A DNA stretch of 64,000 nt. Origin: Chitinimonas sp. BJYL2 (lineage in GTDB: Bacteria; Pseudomonadota; Gammaproteobacteria; Burkholderiales; Chitinimonadaceae). Numbering within the stretch: the stretch's first letter is position 1; each line of letters opens with the position of its first letter. The notes under the pieces were generated by a model. That model was not told the origin of the DNA and did no database searches. It worked only from the letters and a program-made list of their open reading frames with translations. This document shows positions 15,487 through 21,761 of the stretch, piece after piece. Where the stretch lies: contig NZ_JANZKW010000001.1 of assembly GCF_027257935.1 (NCBI RefSeq), positions 744,001 to 808,000 of the forward strand, read 5' to 3'. Both the position numbers and the translations under genes were made by a program.

Positions 15487-15525
15487 CAGCAAAAAGCCCG
15501 CCCTCAACCGGCGGGCTTTTTGCTG
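15487..15525. terminator. Bidirectional intrinsic terminator between ntrX and speD
   Basis: Perfect 16-bp arms at 15487-15502 and 15510-15525 enclose a 7-nt loop. The arms carry a GCCCGCC/GGCGGGC core flanked by A5 and T5 runs, so transcripts in either direction end in a U-tract. It separates the convergent ntr and polyamine operons. Confidence 0.9.
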
Positions 15526-15542: not shown

Positions 15543-15917
15543 TTAGCCGGGGTTGCCGCGATAGAGCCGGCTGATCTGCTGCCGGGCGGGGCACAATGCA
15601 CGCACCAAGGCGGCCAGCAACTGTTCGGCCCGTGCCGAATTGTCGGCGCCGAAATTGCACACATACACATCCAGGGTCACCCCGGCACGTTCAGGCCAAG
15701 TGTGGATGGCCAGATGCGATTCGGCCAGCAGCACGACACCGGTCATGCCGCCAGGGCCGGCGGGGCTGGCAGGGAACGGGTGCCAGCATTCGGCCACGGC
15801 CGTCAGCCCGACTGCGGCGACCTGCCCACGGCAGAGTGCGGCCAGCGCGGGCTGGTCGGTGAGCAGCGCGGTGGCCGCACAGTCGTACAGATCGGCAGTC
15901 AGGTGCAGCCCGTTCAT
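15543..15917 (-). CDS. speD: S-adenosylmethionine decarboxylase proenzyme
   Basis: This 124-aa protein is the short prokaryotic pyruvoyl enzyme that makes decarboxylated SAM, the aminopropyl donor for spermidine. Self-cleavage is expected before S67 in LLAESHLAIHTWPE, with H68 next to it. The downstream catalytic cysteine is C87 in DVYVCNFG. It is the last gene of a seven-gene minus-strand operon, its ATG overlapping the upstream stop by 4 bp. The spermidine synthase homologue two genes upstream would use its product. Confidence 0.95.
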   Translation of the reverse strand: MNGLHLTADLYDCAATALLTDQPALAALCRGQVAAVGLTAVAECWHPFPASPAGPGGMTGVVLLAESHLAIHTWPERAGVTLDVYVCNFGADNSARAEQLLAALVRALCPARQQISRLYRGNPG

Positions 15918-17515
15918 GCAGTCTTCCAGTCTTTGCCCAGCAGCCAGCGTGCGGCCCGCACGCCCCAGTAGTGGGCTTCCTCGGCCAGCGAAAAGCCGCT
16001 GAGGTCGCTATGCGCCAGCATCACGCGGCCGGCGGGTTCGCGCAAGCGGTCCAGATGGCCGCCCAGCAAACCCGGTAGCGGCCGCGCCATCGCATGACCC
16101 CAGCGCCAGATGTCGACTTGCTTGACCAGTCTGGGCAGATCGGGGTGCGCGCGCGACAGTTCGGCCAGTACGCCTTGCACCCAGTGTTCACGCGGTGCGT
16201 CCCGCAAGGCACGGCGGGCAGCTGCCGGCGCCAGCTCGCTGAGTGGTCGGTAGTAGGTCAGCACCGCTTCTCGCTGATGCAGCGCCAGCGACTGCTGATT
16301 GGCCAGCACATAGCCCAGACCCTGCGCGTCGTATAGCACATTGTCCCAGCTCAGCGGCGCACCACCGCGGTGTTCGGGCTGGTCGGCCAGCGTGATGTTG
16401 GCCACCAGCCAGGGGGCATAGCTGAGCTGGCGAGCACCCGCTTGCCAAGCGGCGGGGATGCCGGCCCAGACATGCGGCAGGAAGCCCAGCGGGGCGGCCC
16501 AGACCAGGCGCTCAGCTCGGTAACGCACGCTGCGTTGCTCGGCAGCCAGCCAGACATCGGCGGTCACGCCACGGACATCGGATTCGATGCGCCAGACCAT
16601 CGCGCCGGTCTGTACAGCCGGGCACGCGCGGGCGGCCATGCGGCGAGTCAGCCAGGCATTGCCTTCGGGCCAGGTCAGCACGGTGTCGGATTCGGCATTG
16701 GCTGCCTGGCCGCGACGGCCCGCAAAGTAGTGGATGCCGGCCCAGGCGGAGGTGTCGCGGTAGTCGGTGCCGTAGTCGTCACGGCAGCCGTAGTTGACCC
16801 ACCAGTGCAGGCTATCGGCATCGAACCCTTGCTGGCGCAGCCAGTCGTGCATGCTCAGGCGATCGAGTTGCGCTGCCTCGCTAGCCGCGCCGCGCGCACT
16901 GGGTACGGCGAACACGGGGCGGCCATCTCGCCCCAAGCCTGCCTTCAACTCGGCCATGCGGGCGATGAATGCCTGTTGCTGCTGTCTATCCTTGGCGCTG
17001 ATGCCGAACTGCGGCAGCAGGCCATCTTGCCATTGGCCGTTCAGATACAGCCGCTCCTGCGGCGCAAAGCAAAGTGCGCGCTCGTCGTATTCGGGCGCCA
17101 GCGCCGTCGGGTCGCCGCGCAGCACGCCGAACTCGGCCAGCATGGTACGCAGCTCGGTTGCTTCGGGTCCGGGCAGGGGCAGGTAGTGGGCACCCCAGGG
17201 ATAGGCCGATACGGCATTGCGGCCGGCACGGGCGTTGCCGCCGGTCTCGGCTTCGAGTTCGAGCAGGGCAAAGTCCTGCATGCCGGCACGCGCCAGCCAC
17301 CAGCCGCAGGCCAGCCCGGCCATACCGCCGCCAACGATGAGCGCATCGACCTTGCGGGTTTCGCTCGCAGCCGGGAAGCCGCCGCCGTCACGCAGGCGGT
17401 GGCCCAGATGCTGCGACGGCCCCAGCAGCTCGCCCGGTGGCAACACGGGCGGGCTCTTGCGCGTGCAGCCCAGCAGACCCAGCGCACTGGCGGCCAGGAA
17501 ATCCCGTCGCTTCAT
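15914..17515 (-). CDS. Exported FAD-dependent amine oxidase-like protein
   Basis: I choose the ATG at 17515 (533 aa), which overlaps the upstream stop by 4 bp; the open extension to 17533 adds only six residues. The N-terminus MKRRDFLAASALGLLGC combines a twin-arginine motif with a lipobox ending in Cys, so the protein may be folded with FAD, exported by Tat and lipid-anchored. The Rossmann FAD site is VDALIVGGGMAGLACGWWL (about 56-74), followed by LLELEAETGGNARAGRN as in flavin amine oxidases. Context (speD and a spermidine synthase homologue on either side) suggests a polyamine or related amine substrate, but that is inference. Confidence 0.82.
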   Translation of the reverse strand: MKRRDFLAASALGLLGCTRKSPPVLPPGELLGPSQHLGHRLRDGGGFPAASETRKVDALIVGGGMAGLACGWWLARAGMQDFALLELEAETGGNARAGRNAVSAYPWGAHYLPLPGPEATELRTMLAEFGVLRGDPTALAPEYDERALCFAPQERLYLNGQWQDGLLPQFGISAKDRQQQQAFIARMAELKAGLGRDGRPVFAVPSARGAASEAAQLDRLSMHDWLRQQGFDADSLHWWVNYGCRDDYGTDYRDTSAWAGIHYFAGRRGQAANAESDTVLTWPEGNAWLTRRMAARACPAVQTGAMVWRIESDVRGVTADVWLAAEQRSVRYRAERLVWAAPLGFLPHVWAGIPAAWQAGARQLSYAPWLVANITLADQPEHRGGAPLSWDNVLYDAQGLGYVLANQQSLALHQREAVLTYYRPLSELAPAAARRALRDAPREHWVQGVLAELSRAHPDLPRLVKQVDIWRWGHAMARPLPGLLGGHLDRLREPAGRVMLAHSDLSGFSLAEEAHYWGVRAARWLLGKDWKTA

Positions 17516-19011
17516 CGCACGACCTGCTTCCACTCCTGCTCGAACAGCCGCACCAGCAACTGGTTATCGAGCCGGTTCACCTCCGCAGGCAGCTCGGCCA
17601 TATCGGGCGGGAACTGGAACAAGGGCGGCACGCTCGCTGGCGTGAGGAAACGCAGACCATCCGGCAGTCTTGCCGGCGGGATATAGGACTCACGACCGGC
17701 AAGGATGTAACCCCACTCGCCAAAGCTGGGTACGAGTGCGTGGTAAGGCTGGGTCTGCAAACCCACGGCCTGCACGGTTTTCACCACCGTCCAGTAAGAC
17801 TGGCGCGCATACATGGGCGAGGTGGACTGGATCACGAGCCGGCCACGTGCGCTGAGTGCACGCTCCAGCAGGCGGTAGAAGGTGTTGGTGTAGAGCTTGC
17901 CGACGGCGTAATTGGTGGGGTCAGGGAAGTCGACGACGATGAAGTCGTACGCATCCTGCTGCTGCTCCAGCCACTGGAAAGCATCGCCACGGATGATCCT
18001 GACTTTGGGATGACTAAGCGCATTGCCATTGAGTTCGCGCAGTACCGGATGGTTACGGAACAGCTCGGGCATGGCCGGGTCCAGTTCCACCAGCGTCACC
18101 GATTCGACTTGTGGGTAGCGCAGCACCTCGCGCACCGCGAAGCCGTCGCCGCCGCCCAGCACCAGCACCCGTTTGGCCCAGGGCACACTGGCCAGGCCCG
18201 GATGCACCAGTGCTTCGTGGTAGCGGTACTCGTCCCGCGAACTGAGCTGCAGATTGCCGTTGAGGAACAGGCGCACATCATTGCGCCAGCGCGTCACTAC
18301 AATGCGCTGATACGGGGTGGATTCGGCAAAGATGATGCGGTCTTCATAAAGCGCATCCTCGGCAAAGCCCGAAATGCGCTCTGCGCCGGCAAAGCCGGCC
18401 AGCACCAGCGCCAAGGCCACCAAGCCCTGCGCCCACAAGGCCGTGCGGCCGCGCAGTTCATGCCGGAACAGGTGAGTGGTGTAGAGGGCAATCGCGATAT
18501 TGAGCACCCCGAACAGCAAGGCGGTGCGCACCATGCCCAACTGTGGCGCCAGCCAGAGCGGGAATAGCAGCGACACGGCCAGCGCGCCCAGGTAATCGAC
18601 ACTGAGCACCTTGGAGACCAGATCCTTGAATTCAAGACGGCGCTCCAGAAGGCGCATGACCAGCGGAATCTCCAGGCCCACCAGCGTGCCGATCACGAAG
18701 ACCAGCAGATACAGCAGGAACAGGAAGGGCCCGCTGAGCCAGGTGAACGCATAGAACAGCATGGCGGCCGAAAAGCCGCCCAGCACCCCCACCGCCAGTT
18801 CGATCCGGATAAAGCTGCCGATCAAATCGCGCTGCACAAAGCGCGATAGCCACGAGCCCACACCCATGGCAAACAGGTAAACCCCGATGACGGTGGAAAA
18901 CTGGGTGACCGAATCGCCGACCAGATAGCTCGACAGCGCCGCCGCCACCAGCTCGTAAGCCAGACCACAGGCGGCAACAACAAACACGGAAAACAGCAAG
19001 GCGTGGGGCAT
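17512..19011 (-). CDS. Membrane-anchored spermidine synthase-like protein
   Basis: This 499-aa protein begins MPHALLFSVFVVAAC at 19011; upstream in-frame starts to 19047 lack the conserved hydrophobic beginning. The first 200 residues form about six to seven membrane segments. The cytoplasmic second half is a spermidine synthase fold with the dcSAM-binding block VLVLGGGDGFAVREVLRY (near residue 280), a conserved acidic VELDPAM, and DFPDPTNYAVGKLYTNTFY. It resembles polyamine aminopropyltransferases fused to a transporter-like membrane domain. With the neighbouring SpeD it could make spermidine at the membrane; whether putrescine or another amine is the acceptor is unknown. Confidence 0.88.
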   Translation of the reverse strand: MPHALLFSVFVVAACGLAYELVAAALSSYLVGDSVTQFSTVIGVYLFAMGVGSWLSRFVQRDLIGSFIRIELAVGVLGGFSAAMLFYAFTWLSGPFLFLLYLLVFVIGTLVGLEIPLVMRLLERRLEFKDLVSKVLSVDYLGALAVSLLFPLWLAPQLGMVRTALLFGVLNIAIALYTTHLFRHELRGRTALWAQGLVALALVLAGFAGAERISGFAEDALYEDRIIFAESTPYQRIVVTRWRNDVRLFLNGNLQLSSRDEYRYHEALVHPGLASVPWAKRVLVLGGGDGFAVREVLRYPQVESVTLVELDPAMPELFRNHPVLRELNGNALSHPKVRIIRGDAFQWLEQQQDAYDFIVVDFPDPTNYAVGKLYTNTFYRLLERALSARGRLVIQSTSPMYARQSYWTVVKTVQAVGLQTQPYHALVPSFGEWGYILAGRESYIPPARLPDGLRFLTPASVPPLFQFPPDMAELPAEVNRLDNQLLVRLFEQEWKQVVR

Positions 19012-19073
19012 GGGGAAACCGGGAAAGGACAGGCTCGGTGGCGGCAAGTACCGCGCAGGGCGGGTGAGACGGC

Positions 19074-19433
19074 TTAGCTATCGCGCTGCCGCTTGCTGTC
19101 GATGAACTCATCCATCCGCGAAAGCAGACGCCACCACTCGGTGTTGTCTTCGCGATAGACGCGGATTGCGCCGGCACGGACCAGGATCTTGCGCAGCTCG
19201 TTGTCCTCGAAGCCGCCCAGATGCTGGCGCAGCGTGTCGAAGGAGCGATCGGTGTAGCCCTTGTGGCTAAGGAAGTGGCGAGCGGTCTCCTCGGCCATGA
19301 ACTCGGTCTTGTGCTGCTCGCGCAGGGTCTGCAACTGATGTTGCAGTTGCTGGCGATTGAGCATGTAGCTGATCAGGCCGCCCACGGCGGAGCCGACCAC
19401 GGTGCCCGCCAGGGCATAGAGTGCGTCGTTCAT
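19074..19433 (-). CDS. Small membrane-anchored protein of unknown function
   Basis: This 119-aa product starts at the ATG at 19433, 7 bp after the DUF350 gene; an open extension to 19475 would overlap DUF350. One membrane segment (about 4-24, ALAGTVVGSAVGGLISYML) is followed by a Gln-rich coiled coil (RQQLQHQLQTLREQHKTEF) and a charged C-terminal part (about 50-115) that could fold as a small helical domain. I do not recognise the family. It lies in the middle of the polyamine operon, 62 bp before the spermidine synthase homologue. Confidence 0.75.
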   Translation of the reverse strand: MNDALYALAGTVVGSAVGGLISYMLNRQQLQHQLQTLREQHKTEFMAEETARHFLSHKGYTDRSFDTLRQHLGGFEDNELRKILVRAGAIRVYREDNTEWWRLLSRMDEFIDSKRQRDS

Positions 19434-19440
19434 GCCGCGC

Positions 19441-19653
19441 TCAATGAATGGCCGAAGCCACAATGATGGCCACACCCAGGCACATGGCAGCGACCACGGT
19501 GGCCAGCGCCTGGTTGCGCTCTTCGATCAGGTTCTTCCACAAGTCGTACGGGGTGATCTTGTCGATGATGATGAAGCTGAGCCAGAACACCGCCACACCC
19601 AGCAGCGAGTAAACCAGCGAGGCGAGAATGTAATCGAGTTTCAGGAGGTCCAT
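19441..19653 (-). CDS. DUF350 family membrane protein
   Basis: This 70-aa protein has two membrane segments (about 10-29 and 48-68) joined by the polar stretch DKITPYDLWKNLIEERNQAL, the layout of one DUF350 unit (the family of E. coli YjfL). A GGAG lies 7 nt before the ATG. DUF350 genes often sit beside DUF4178 and spermidine synthase-like genes, as here, but no biochemical role is established. Confidence 0.85.
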   Translation of the reverse strand: MDLLKLDYILASLVYSLLGVAVFWLSFIIIDKITPYDLWKNLIEERNQALATVVAAMCLGVAIIVASAIH

Positions 19654-19710
19654 GCTTGTCTCCAGTGCAAAGTCAGGATGCCAGTCGGCAGGGTGAGCGT
19701 GAACCCGCCC

Positions 19711-19857
19711 TCATTTGTGGTACAGCCGGCCTACGCCACCTGTACCGGCTTTTTCGCGCACCTCGTTGGCCGAACCGAAGGCCGGTTTGCCCAGATACTG
19801 CGCATAGCCGAACAGCGCCGTAGCCAAGGCCCCCAGAATCAGGAAAGTGCGGAACAT
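19711..19857 (-). CDS. 48-residue membrane peptide gene
   Basis: The ATG at 19857 shares one base with the stop of the DUF4178 gene (TGATG), typical of translational coupling, and the frame ends in TGA at 19711. The 48-aa product starts MFRTFLILGALATALFGYAQ, one membrane segment, and ends in a short Gly/Lys-rich tail (KAGTGGVGRLYHK). I do not recognise it. Coupling and position support a real gene; without a homology search the coding claim stays moderate. Confidence 0.65.
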   Translation of the reverse strand: MFRTFLILGALATALFGYAQYLGKPAFGSANEVREKAGTGGVGRLYHK

Positions 19858-21761
19858 CAGTCGTCATCTCCATCGTCGTCGCTGCCGCTGGGCGCGTAGT
19901 CGCTATCGGCCCAGCGTTGCTGTTCGAAGCTGGCTGCGCGCAGCCACACCCAGCACGGGAACAGCAGCAGAAAGCCCAGCAACAGCCAGTAATTGCGCCA
20001 GATCGGCACATCGCGCACCAACGTGATCCGGTCGCTGAGTCCGGCCTTGTGGGCTTCGGTTTCGGCGTCGATTTCCAGCAGATAGGTGCCGGCCGGCACA
20101 TCGGCCAGCAAGGCTTCGTCACTGGCGCTACCCTCGCTCCACGCGCCATCCGAATCATGGCCACGGTAGAAGCTGACTTCACGCCCCAGGCGGAAGCTTT
20201 CGCCGGTATCGCGATTGATCAGGTTCAGTTCCGTATACAGCCAGCGATTATCCACATCGGTTTCCTGACGGATCGCCAGATTGTGCCCGCCTTCGAGCAC
20301 GAAGGGCTCGCTCGTCATGCTGTGCTGCGGCTGCCCCATGGGCATGTCCAGCCGCCCCTGCCAGACGGTCTTGTTGGCCGCCGCGCCCACGGACACGAAC
20401 TGCACGACACCGGCAATGGCGGCAATGGCCAGATAAGCCAGCCAGTAAGGCGCGCTGGATTCGCGTGGCGAGGGCTGATTGGGTGCCACGCCTGTCGGTT
20501 CGGGCAGCGGCTTGGGTAGCTGGAATGCCTGCGCGACGACCGCATGCGGCACATACTCGGCCAGCGACCAACTCAGCTCGGTCTCGCTGCGCTCGGCCGA
20601 GAGCAGGTAGGGCGGCGACACATAATCGTCACAGCTCGCCTTGTCACCCACCTTGACCTGCCAGTTGAACTCACCGATCACTTGGGTGACTTCAGCCTGG
20701 CTACGCTGGTAATGCTTGTAGTCGCGGTCCAGAAAGCGGGCAACCGGCTGGGTGGCGGGCTTGATCGAGGGCAGGCGGGTAAGCGGTTTGGCAAAATTCC
20801 AGTGACCGTTGTATTCGGTCAGCCAGGCGTAACCGGCATCGGCCGCGTGCAGCAGGTATTCATCCCAGCTGTAGCGTATGCCCTCCACCGTGGTGGCGCG
20901 GCGCATGAAACCGATCACCGTATACGCGCGGCCCTGCAACTTGCCTTGGCTGCCTACGGGCAGCTTGGGTATGGCCAGCTTCTCGACGACACGGCTGAGT
21001 ATCTTGAGATTGGCGTCGTCGGGGTCGACCACGGCGCCGCAGTGAGCACAGCCGACGGCACGGATATCGGGACCACGTACCGACAGGGGGGCACCGCAAC
21101 TGCTGCACTTGAACGCCCGTGCCTCGGCGCGGGCGACCTTGGGTGTGTCGGTCGGTGCAGCAGGGTCCAGCAGTGTATCCAGCGTCACCGCTTCGCCGAT
21201 GTAGACCTTGGGCGGGTCTTCGCTGTAATCAAGGCTGGCAAAGCCGGCATCGGAGCGCAAATCCACCGCTGGCGCAGCGTAACCCGGTGCGGCACGGAAC
21301 GGCAGCTCGCCTTCGATGGCGACGCATTCGGCGGCTTCGATATTGGTCACCGTATACGGCTTGCCACCCAACTTGGCGGTCTGGCCGACGCTGAATTCGG
21401 TGATCGGCGGCAGCTGTGTCTTGAGCGTCTGCTCAAAAGTCACATAGCACAGCCCGGAGCCCTCGGACACCCAGCCCAGCCGGCCATCATCAAGCCGGGC
21501 ATACCATTCATTCCAGTAGCCCTGCGCATACTTGAGCTGCAAGCGGCCGATCAGCTCGAAACCCACACTGCCATAGCGGCCACGGAATCGTAACCTGAAG
21601 GGGCTACGATCCTCCGCGAGGGTGGCCATGGTGCCAAGGTTTTCCAGATCGGCATCGTGGCGCACCAGCGTGCTGCGACAAAAGCCGCACACGGCCATGA
21701 CCGAGGCGGCTGAATGGAATTCGACCTGGGCCCCGCAGGAGGGGCAGGCTGCAGCGTGCAT
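19857..21761 (-). CDS. DUF4178 protein with two zinc-ribbon motifs and two membrane segments
   Basis: This 634-aa protein is built from two similar halves. Each begins with a CxxC...CxxC zinc-ribbon-like motif (CPSCGAQ near residue 6 and CSSCGAP near 218) followed by a beta-rich DUF4178-like region containing a YxWxEYLL or WNEWYARL type stretch. Membrane segments follow at about 432-455 and 588-608, with a beta domain between them, and the tail is very acidic (SGSDDDGDDD). The function is unknown. It is the first gene of the polyamine operon and is coupled to the 48-aa peptide gene. Confidence 0.82.
   Translation of the reverse strand: MHAAACPSCGAQVEFHSAASVMAVCGFCRSTLVRHDADLENLGTMATLAEDRSPFRLRFRGRYGSVGFELIGRLQLKYAQGYWNEWYARLDDGRLGWVSEGSGLCYVTFEQTLKTQLPPITEFSVGQTAKLGGKPYTVTNIEAAECVAIEGELPFRAAPGYAAPAVDLRSDAGFASLDYSEDPPKVYIGEAVTLDTLLDPAAPTDTPKVARAEARAFKCSSCGAPLSVRGPDIRAVGCAHCGAVVDPDDANLKILSRVVEKLAIPKLPVGSQGKLQGRAYTVIGFMRRATTVEGIRYSWDEYLLHAADAGYAWLTEYNGHWNFAKPLTRLPSIKPATQPVARFLDRDYKHYQRSQAEVTQVIGEFNWQVKVGDKASCDDYVSPPYLLSAERSETELSWSLAEYVPHAVVAQAFQLPKPLPEPTGVAPNQPSPRESSAPYWLAYLAIAAIAGVVQFVSVGAAANKTVWQGRLDMPMGQPQHSMTSEPFVLEGGHNLAIRQETDVDNRWLYTELNLINRDTGESFRLGREVSFYRGHDSDGAWSEGSASDEALLADVPAGTYLLEIDAETEAHKAGLSDRITLVRDVPIWRNYWLLLGFLLLFPCWVWLRAASFEQQRWADSDYAPSGSDDDGDDD

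Follow-up and report, generated by a model that had tools for sequence, protein, structure and literature searches.

Closest described systems and the operon studied here

Bacterial operons in which a spermine/spermidine-synthase-like domain is fused to a seven-transmembrane (7TM) domain, and in which DUF350, DUF4178 and a novel lipoprotein are also encoded, have been described (PMC11237479, mSystems 2024). AdoMet decarboxylase and polyamine oxidase occur in operon variants, which are listed there under the third, ATP-grasp group, and a passage of the same paper mentions 'aminopropylation of other substrates'. In a passage of PMC12803844 (JBC 2025), which cites Li et al. 2019, it is stated that bacterial fusions of a membrane domain with an aminopropyltransferase (APT) had been shown to play no part in the biosynthesis of spermidine or spermine. 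Here, an operon of this kind was analysed in the 64,000-nucleotide stretch of Chitinimonas sp. BJYL2 DNA shown above (the window), where seven minus-strand genes at positions 15543-21761 encode a DUF4178 protein, a 48-amino-acid (aa) membrane peptide, a DUF350 protein, a 119-aa protein, a spermidine synthase (SpdSyn) homologue fused to a membrane domain (TM-SpeE), a flavin adenine dinucleotide (FAD) protein and the AdoMet decarboxylase SpeD. As spermidine is reportedly not the product of such fusions, the question arises of what bacterial membrane-fused SpeE homologues act on. Li et al. 2019 (Biochem J 476:2579) reportedly described clusters in which SpeD and DUF350 occur together with a membrane-APT fusion, and are said to have proposed a non-putrescine substrate; to our knowledge, no acceptor was named there. 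The window operon resembles these clusters in having SpeD, a membrane-SpdSyn fusion and DUF350.

Like the operons of PMC11237479, the window operon combines the 7TM-SpdSyn fusion, DUF350 and DUF4178 and, like the variants, it has SpeD and an FAD protein with amine-oxidase fold, the activity of which is predicted. Unlike in those operons, neither a CesT/Tir-PspA pair nor a band-7 protein is present in the window operon, and PspA was not found in the genome. An earlier note on this DNA, made from the letters alone, had presented the operon as a candidate for an undescribed system; this does not hold for the core cluster, which is contained in PMC11237479. Both the operon core and the doubt on spermidine were already known, and what is new here is the conserved lysine end of a tail; a C-terminal Lys tail was not found in print in a search limited to open-licence main texts. 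This C-terminal lysine, absent from the earlier note, we consider the key feature of the operon. We tentatively propose, with the chances put just short of even, a membrane protein-modification system in which TM-SpeE aminopropylates the C-terminal lysine to yield a tethered spermidine-like arm and not free spermidine.

Conservation of the C-terminal lysine

Alignment of homologues of the 48-aa peptide (n = 24) revealed two invariant columns, namely one glycine and the final lysine, with the penultimate histidine being kept in at least 90% of the sequences. Since these 24 peptides had partly been found through similarity, a search by position only was carried out, in which a small open reading frame (ORF) with a hydrophobic start directly behind DUF4178 was sought and no similarity to the peptide was used. 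The census comprised 100 loci (80 fetched plus 20 more), 85 with and 15 without DUF4178. Behind or on DUF4178 in the 85 loci, the rule returned 51 free ORFs ending in Lys, 29 Lys tails fused to DUF4178 itself and one ORF ending in Phe, while four loci were left without an ORF. In each of the five misses (L138, where the wrong ORF was taken, and L068, L087, L096 and L103, where none was), a Lys-ended peptide was found on reading by eye, so that a Lys-ended tail is present in 85/85 loci with DUF4178, 80 by rule and five by eye. As a control, the same rule was applied behind 362 other genes, where it gave 50 ORFs with a single one ending in Lys; the ends of 392 other genes comprised 27 in K and none in HK or GK. 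Fisher's test of the Lys-ended ORFs (51/52 versus 1/50 in the control) gave p = 1e-26, a figure that is indicative only because the loci are related.

In the loci devoid of the peptide, many of them from Variovorax, Comamonas, Delftia, Acidovorax and their kin, DUF4178 itself ends in ..SSGGGHK or ..SGGSHK; in loci with the peptide it has other ends, mostly an acidic run. Judged from the sequences, the tail looks modular, in that the carrier switches while the last residue stays; this was unforeseen and is the most telling point of the analysis. The carrier, by the same reading, is a free membrane peptide (as in the window operon), the end of DUF4178 or the end of a putative lipoprotein.

The 15 loci without DUF4178 all belong to genomes that have DUF4178 elsewhere. 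When these unlinked copies were read with profile-defined frames, 13/13 were found to have HK-ended tails (12 free, one fused); the other two run off the contig. Six further near relatives with DUF4178 (L168, L169 and L171-L174) had the Lys tail in 6/6, two of them repeating genomes already counted (probably L065 = L168 and L117 = L171), and all counts given here refer to loci, not to independent species. In L172, no peptide lies directly behind DUF4178, but one ending in SHK lies farther on, beside SpeD.

Plasmid records with a full-length TM-SpeE, which were fetched after the idea had been formed and include several sister strains, contained a Lys-ended tail protein in 12/12 cases (Gemmatirosa, three Burkholderia, three Novosphingobium, two Tritonibacter, Ensifer and two Alteromonas). 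The tails end in VK in Tritonibacter, in GK in Ensifer, Alteromonas and Gemmatirosa, and in HK in the others. A thirteenth record, from Rhodovulum and with a partial TM-SpeE only, had no Lys-ended tail. At distant loci, where TM-SpeE is 30-45% identical, a same-strand search over 5 kb for proteins ending in HK or GK revealed a GK-ended protein in 9/11, mostly with a Ser/Gly/Arg-rich end. A lipobox is present in 7/10 of the distant-type tail proteins (those of the nine distant loci and an Alteromonas protein).

Parts of the operon

The features of the operon are as follows.

19857..21761, minus strand: DUF4178 protein, 634 aa, in which two zinc ribbons and two DUF4178 domains are combined with membrane spans in the C-terminal part and an acidic end
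19711..19857, minus strand: 48-aa membrane peptide with the end ...GRLYHK, the Lys-tail carrier of the operon
19714..19716, minus strand: AAA codon encoding the C-terminal lysine that is proposed as acceptor
19441..19653, minus strand: DUF350 membrane protein, 70 aa
19074..19433, minus strand: 119-aa membrane/coiled-coil protein, an orphan within the operon and not one of its conserved members
17512..19011, minus strand: TM-SpeE, 499 aa, with seven predicted membrane helices and an APT domain
15914..17515, minus strand: FAD protein, 533 aa, with Tat and lipobox signal and amine-oxidase fold
15543..15917, minus strand: SpeD, AdoMet decarboxylase, 124 aa, the sole SpeD of the genome
about 15491..15521, minus strand: hairpin with a T run following SpeD, similar to a terminator and identified by eye

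The ORF check of the window confirmed the seven packed genes and the three overlapping junctions described in the earlier note, the overlaps being 1, 4 and 4 bp and the remaining gaps 57, 7 and 62 bp. The two zinc ribbons that it had assigned to the DUF4178 protein were likewise read directly in the sequence (CPSC..CGFC and CSSC..CAHC). Pfam E-values were 9.5e-25 for AdoMet_dc, 1e-37 for Spermine_synth, 2.8e-14 for DUF350 and 1.4e-27 for DUF4178 (two stretches). TM-SpeE matched NCBIfam PRK03612 at 2.8e-203, and SpeD scored just over the cut-off of TIGR03330 (77.7 versus 75.65 bits). SpeD was aligned with 1tlu through ESHLAIHTWPE...VC, and the positions of the class 1b pyruvoyl-serine, His and Cys are present.

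Among the four partners that had been called uncharacterised, the 119-aa protein turned out to be an orphan; it was found in 0/100 relatives' loci and in 1/200 order genomes, that being its own genome only, and was dropped as an operon partner. Its gene is inserted between those of DUF350 and TM-SpeE. In most of the short DUF350 proteins of the window and its relatives, the last residues are ..A[IV]H or ..A[IV]HG, which is a second conserved C-terminus in the operon.

For TM-SpeE, sequences from 49 of the loci were aligned. Y264, H265, D289, D343, D361, D364 and Q395 are identical in 49/49 and match positions of spermidine synthases that are catalytic or bind decarboxylated S-adenosylmethionine (dcSAM). 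The APT fold is present together with the spermidine-synthase catalytic residues. The region of the putrescine-clamping tyrosine, of the human Y241 type, reads PSFGEWG in TM-SpeE, and the alignment to 6qmm has a gap there. The structure model revealed seven membrane helices ahead of the APT domain (predicted local distance difference test (pLDDT) 89.7, predicted template modelling score (pTM) 0.67). In 49/49 sequences, loops 2/3, 4/5 and 6/7 contain more Lys and Arg than do the remaining loops and the segment following helix 7 (means 8.8 versus 3.1); the N-terminus is therefore predicted to lie inside and the APT domain outside, at the inner membrane's outer face. Fused-tail DUF4178 proteins have a single span in 27/29 cases, and these spans, together with the lipoprotein carriers, lead to the prediction that the tails lie on the outer face as well.

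The FAD protein starts with MKRRDFLAASALGLLGC, a twin-arginine (Tat) signal with a lipobox. In an alignment of 42 relatives, window included, from which the counts were taken, both Tat arginines are kept in 41/42 and the lipobox cysteine in 34/42, and the protein is predicted to be an exported lipoprotein. The Pfam amine-oxidase model gave no match at E <= 1, Pfam placing the protein as a Rossmann FAD protein. Its structure model (pLDDT 93.6) had putrescine oxidase and monoamine oxidases as best Foldseek matches, with spermidine dehydrogenase lower, and it is because of this fold that the amine-oxidase label is used. The exported FAD amine oxidase homologue of the earlier note is hence supported by the fold and the Tat/lipobox signal but not by the Pfam model, and its suggestion that a polyamine product is exported and oxidised was half right, in that the oxidase homologue is the predicted exported component. 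Tail, APT domain and FAD oxidase are all predicted to be on the outer face.

Distribution and gene neighbourhood

TM-SpeE matches were found in 20/229 class genomes at E <= 1e-30, with weak and partial matches counted, and in 32/200 order genomes at 1e-60. Out of at least 585 matches, the 80 best loci were fetched, a set that leans to near relatives; according to the record titles, the loci come from Proteobacteria, Acidobacteria, Gemmatimonadetes, Verrucomicrobia and one Fibrobacteres metagenome-assembled genome. Neighbours within 5 kb on the same strand were counted in the 52 of the 80 loci that have at least 6 kb upstream and at least 3 kb downstream of TM-SpeE. The FAD gene was found in 42, DUF4178 in 41, DUF350 in 35, band-7 in 35 and SpeD in 15 (plus three on the opposite strand), and the genes do co-occur beyond close relatives, so that the first refuting condition of the earlier note, a lack of such co-occurrence, was not borne out. 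Six of the 52 loci were without any sought gene and four had the FAD gene alone. FAD counts are from a single-sequence search, an iterated profile having been set aside since it drifted to out-of-frame ORFs (169 matches, 79 loci).

The same gene order is evident from the RefSeq labels in Novosphingobium sp. ES2-1, reading SPFH, DUF4178, DUF4178, 48-aa hypothetical protein, DUF350, polyamine aminopropyltransferase, FAD oxidoreductase and speD. At locus L160:8251-12606, the TM-SpeE gene has a PspA-like pair close by, and DUF350 and a Lys tail were not found in the fetched 19 kb.

In the rest of the host genome, no DUF1190 match was found. The single Band_7_1 protein (L136:1078-2247, C1 near 431.5 kb) is unlinked, about 330 kb off, and ends GltJ-like, where operon-linked band-7 relatives end SHOCT-like by eye. 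Two other SpdSyn-like proteins are encoded; the first exceeds the PRK04457 cut-off, and the second is a split MFS_SpdSyn. The latter cousin is divided into two genes (L133:630-1304 and L133:1225-2175, contig C2 near 844 kb). At the start of its SpdSyn half are residues resembling a signal peptide (LTLLTLPAQA), a hint that in that family, too, an SpdSyn-like domain may lie outside the cytoplasm.

Proposed mechanism and alternative explanations

According to the proposed mechanism, SpeD would form dcSAM in the cytoplasm, and TM-SpeE, with its APT domain facing outwards, would use this dcSAM as aminopropyl donor for the C-terminal lysine on an outward-facing tail, the acceptor group being the side-chain amine. 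As the lysine side chain resembles putrescine, the product would be a tethered spermidine-like arm (N-epsilon-aminopropyl-lysine), in which -(CH2)4-NH-(CH2)3-NH2, the spermidine skeleton, is anchored to the membrane tail. The Tat-exported FAD lipoprotein, where encoded, might oxidise or trim the arm, and DUF350, DUF4178 and band-7 or PspA partners might sense or use it in envelope homeostasis. Such a mechanism would account for the kept dcSAM synthesis, the dispensable free spermidine, the conserved last residue, and the presence of tail, enzyme domain and oxidase on one predicted side. Lysine as the acceptor, the route of dcSAM outwards, the action of the FAD enzyme and the physiological role are points that we only infer. 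In its most specific form, in which a dedicated C-terminal lysine on an extracytoplasmic tail is aminopropylated at the outer face with dcSAM passed out by the seven-helix domain of TM-SpeE, the proposal would describe a new protein modification in bacteria; this we consider possible, at somewhat below even chances.

Several observations weigh against aminopropylation of the tail. The search at the distant loci was targeted, HK and GK endings having been asked for, and even so L160 and L167 were without a Lys tail; DUF4178 was not found in either genome. The outward APT domain follows from the positive-inside rule, which is a prediction, and it requires dcSAM outside the cytoplasm, for which we know of no transport. 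Lys or Arg occurs among residues 2-7 in 24/24 of the aligned free peptides, and since the peptide tails are basic too, the orientation of the free peptide is uncertain. TM-SpeE retains most of the residues that form the putrescine site in spermidine synthases. Regarding the FAD protein, no column with more than 50% Lys was found across the 42 sequences, where flavin amine oxidases have a conserved active-site lysine. Its gene was not found in distant-type loci, so the FAD part would be optional. Finally, the C-terminal lysine could be retained for binding or sorting.

This last point leads to the alternative that TM-SpeE aminopropylates another acceptor, which might be a lipid head group, a different protein or a small amine, while the Lys tail serves in binding, sorting or assembly, for instance by being bound by DUF350 or by the APT domain. 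The other substrates mentioned in the passage of PMC11237479 speak for it, an APT domain following seven membrane helices fits a membrane substrate, and a last residue can be conserved without being modified. We nevertheless regard it as unlikely, though clearly the most serious alternative, since it leaves unexplained why Lys occurs with TM-SpeE and Gly-Gly with an ATP-grasp ligase (see below), and why the tail freely changes its carrier. A further possibility is that the FAD lipoprotein acts on the tail lysine, in a lysyl-oxidase-like reaction giving an aldehyde for cross-links, while TM-SpeE does something else. The amine-oxidase fold, the predicted outward location and the linkage of the FAD gene in 42/52 well-flanked loci agree with this; yet Lys tails are present in distant-type loci where the FAD gene was not found, and in the Ensifer, Tritonibacter and Alteromonas plasmid loci, where it was not detected, which makes this explanation very improbable.

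The earlier note had in mind ordinary spermidine synthesis located at the membrane, the FAD enzyme being an oxidase of polyamines. This reading is consistent with the conserved catalytic residues of TM-SpeE, with the NCBI family name polyamine aminopropyltransferase, and with the composition of the genome, where a second SpeD was not found, the sole copy being in the operon, and where no other SpdSyn-like protein exceeded the speE or PRK00811 cut-offs. NspC as an alternative spermidine route was rejected, its best score in the genome being 20.7 bits against a cut-off of 409. Because no other SpeD was found, and no other SpdSyn-like protein or NspC over these cut-offs, this operon could be the spermidine route of the genome, which also counts against a tethered product. 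The Lys tail, DUF350 and DUF4178 would, however, stay unexplained, and PMC12803844, in the passage referred to above, calls bacterial membrane-APT fusions uninvolved in spermidine or spermine biosynthesis, a statement on the family and not on this protein. We consider ordinary spermidine synthesis as the function of the operon improbable.

If aminopropylation of the Lys tail is true, it would mean a hypusine-like protein modification in bacteria and the use of dcSAM outside the cytoplasm. The tail provides one concrete candidate substrate for membrane-fused spermidine-synthase homologues.

Comparison with known systems

Polyamine-like extension of a lysine side chain is found in deoxyhypusine of eIF5A and in diatom silaffins. 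These differ from the tails described here in that internal lysines and other enzymes are concerned and no bacterial membrane tails are involved. Aminopropylated microcin C of Bacillus subtilis is reportedly made with dcSAM, as indicated by the title of Kulikovsky et al. 2025; there, as proposed here, dcSAM would serve to aminopropylate something besides a free polyamine, although microcin C is a peptide-nucleotide antibiotic with no membrane tail.

The operons of PMC11237479 include a small lipoprotein with a Ctha_1186 domain, and the Lys-tail proteins, several with a lipobox, fill that slot as candidate counterparts. Unlike the present analysis, the passages of its main text on these operons make no mention of a C-terminal lysine or of its shift to DUF4178.

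A close parallel is offered by Escherichia coli, where the DUF1190 proteins YgiB and YjfM adjoin YgiC and YjfC, each annotated as 'peptide--spermidine ligase' in RefSeq. The primary paper on this ligase is, by its title, said to be that of Pederick et al. 2023. In a passage of PMC12568646, YgiC/YjfC are termed 'peptidylpolyamine synthetases'. YgiB-YgiC and YjfL-YjfM-YjfC resemble the window operon in that a lipoprotein-like protein with a Ser/Gly-rich end is encoded beside a polyamine-conjugating enzyme, with DUF350 present in the yjf operon. The ends of YgiB and YjfM, however, are closed by Gly-Gly. Further DUF1190 loci (n = 34) gave the ends GG (30), GS (2), GT (1) and LA (1, frame shifted), with none in K. 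In the frame-shifted case, L178, the shift lies near the end of DUF1190 and the other frame ends in GG; it was scored as non-GG. A YgiC-type ligase was found within the fetched stretch of 29/34 of these loci and TM-SpeE in 0/34. Conversely, an ATP-grasp ligase was found in 0/126 TM-SpeE loci and in none of the window operon genes.

The YgiC/YjfC system thus has an ATP-grasp ligase and Gly-Gly ends, whereas the TM-SpeE system has Lys ends. Across the loci compared, the last residue tracks the putative enzyme, being Gly with a carboxylate-activating ligase and Lys with an amine-alkylating transferase. If aminopropylation of the Lys tail is true, the ligase of E. coli and the transferase, with their unrelated chemistries, would converge on the same outcome, a polyamine attached to a membrane tail next to DUF350, which would provide a shared logic for two operon families that are tied in print to envelope stress.

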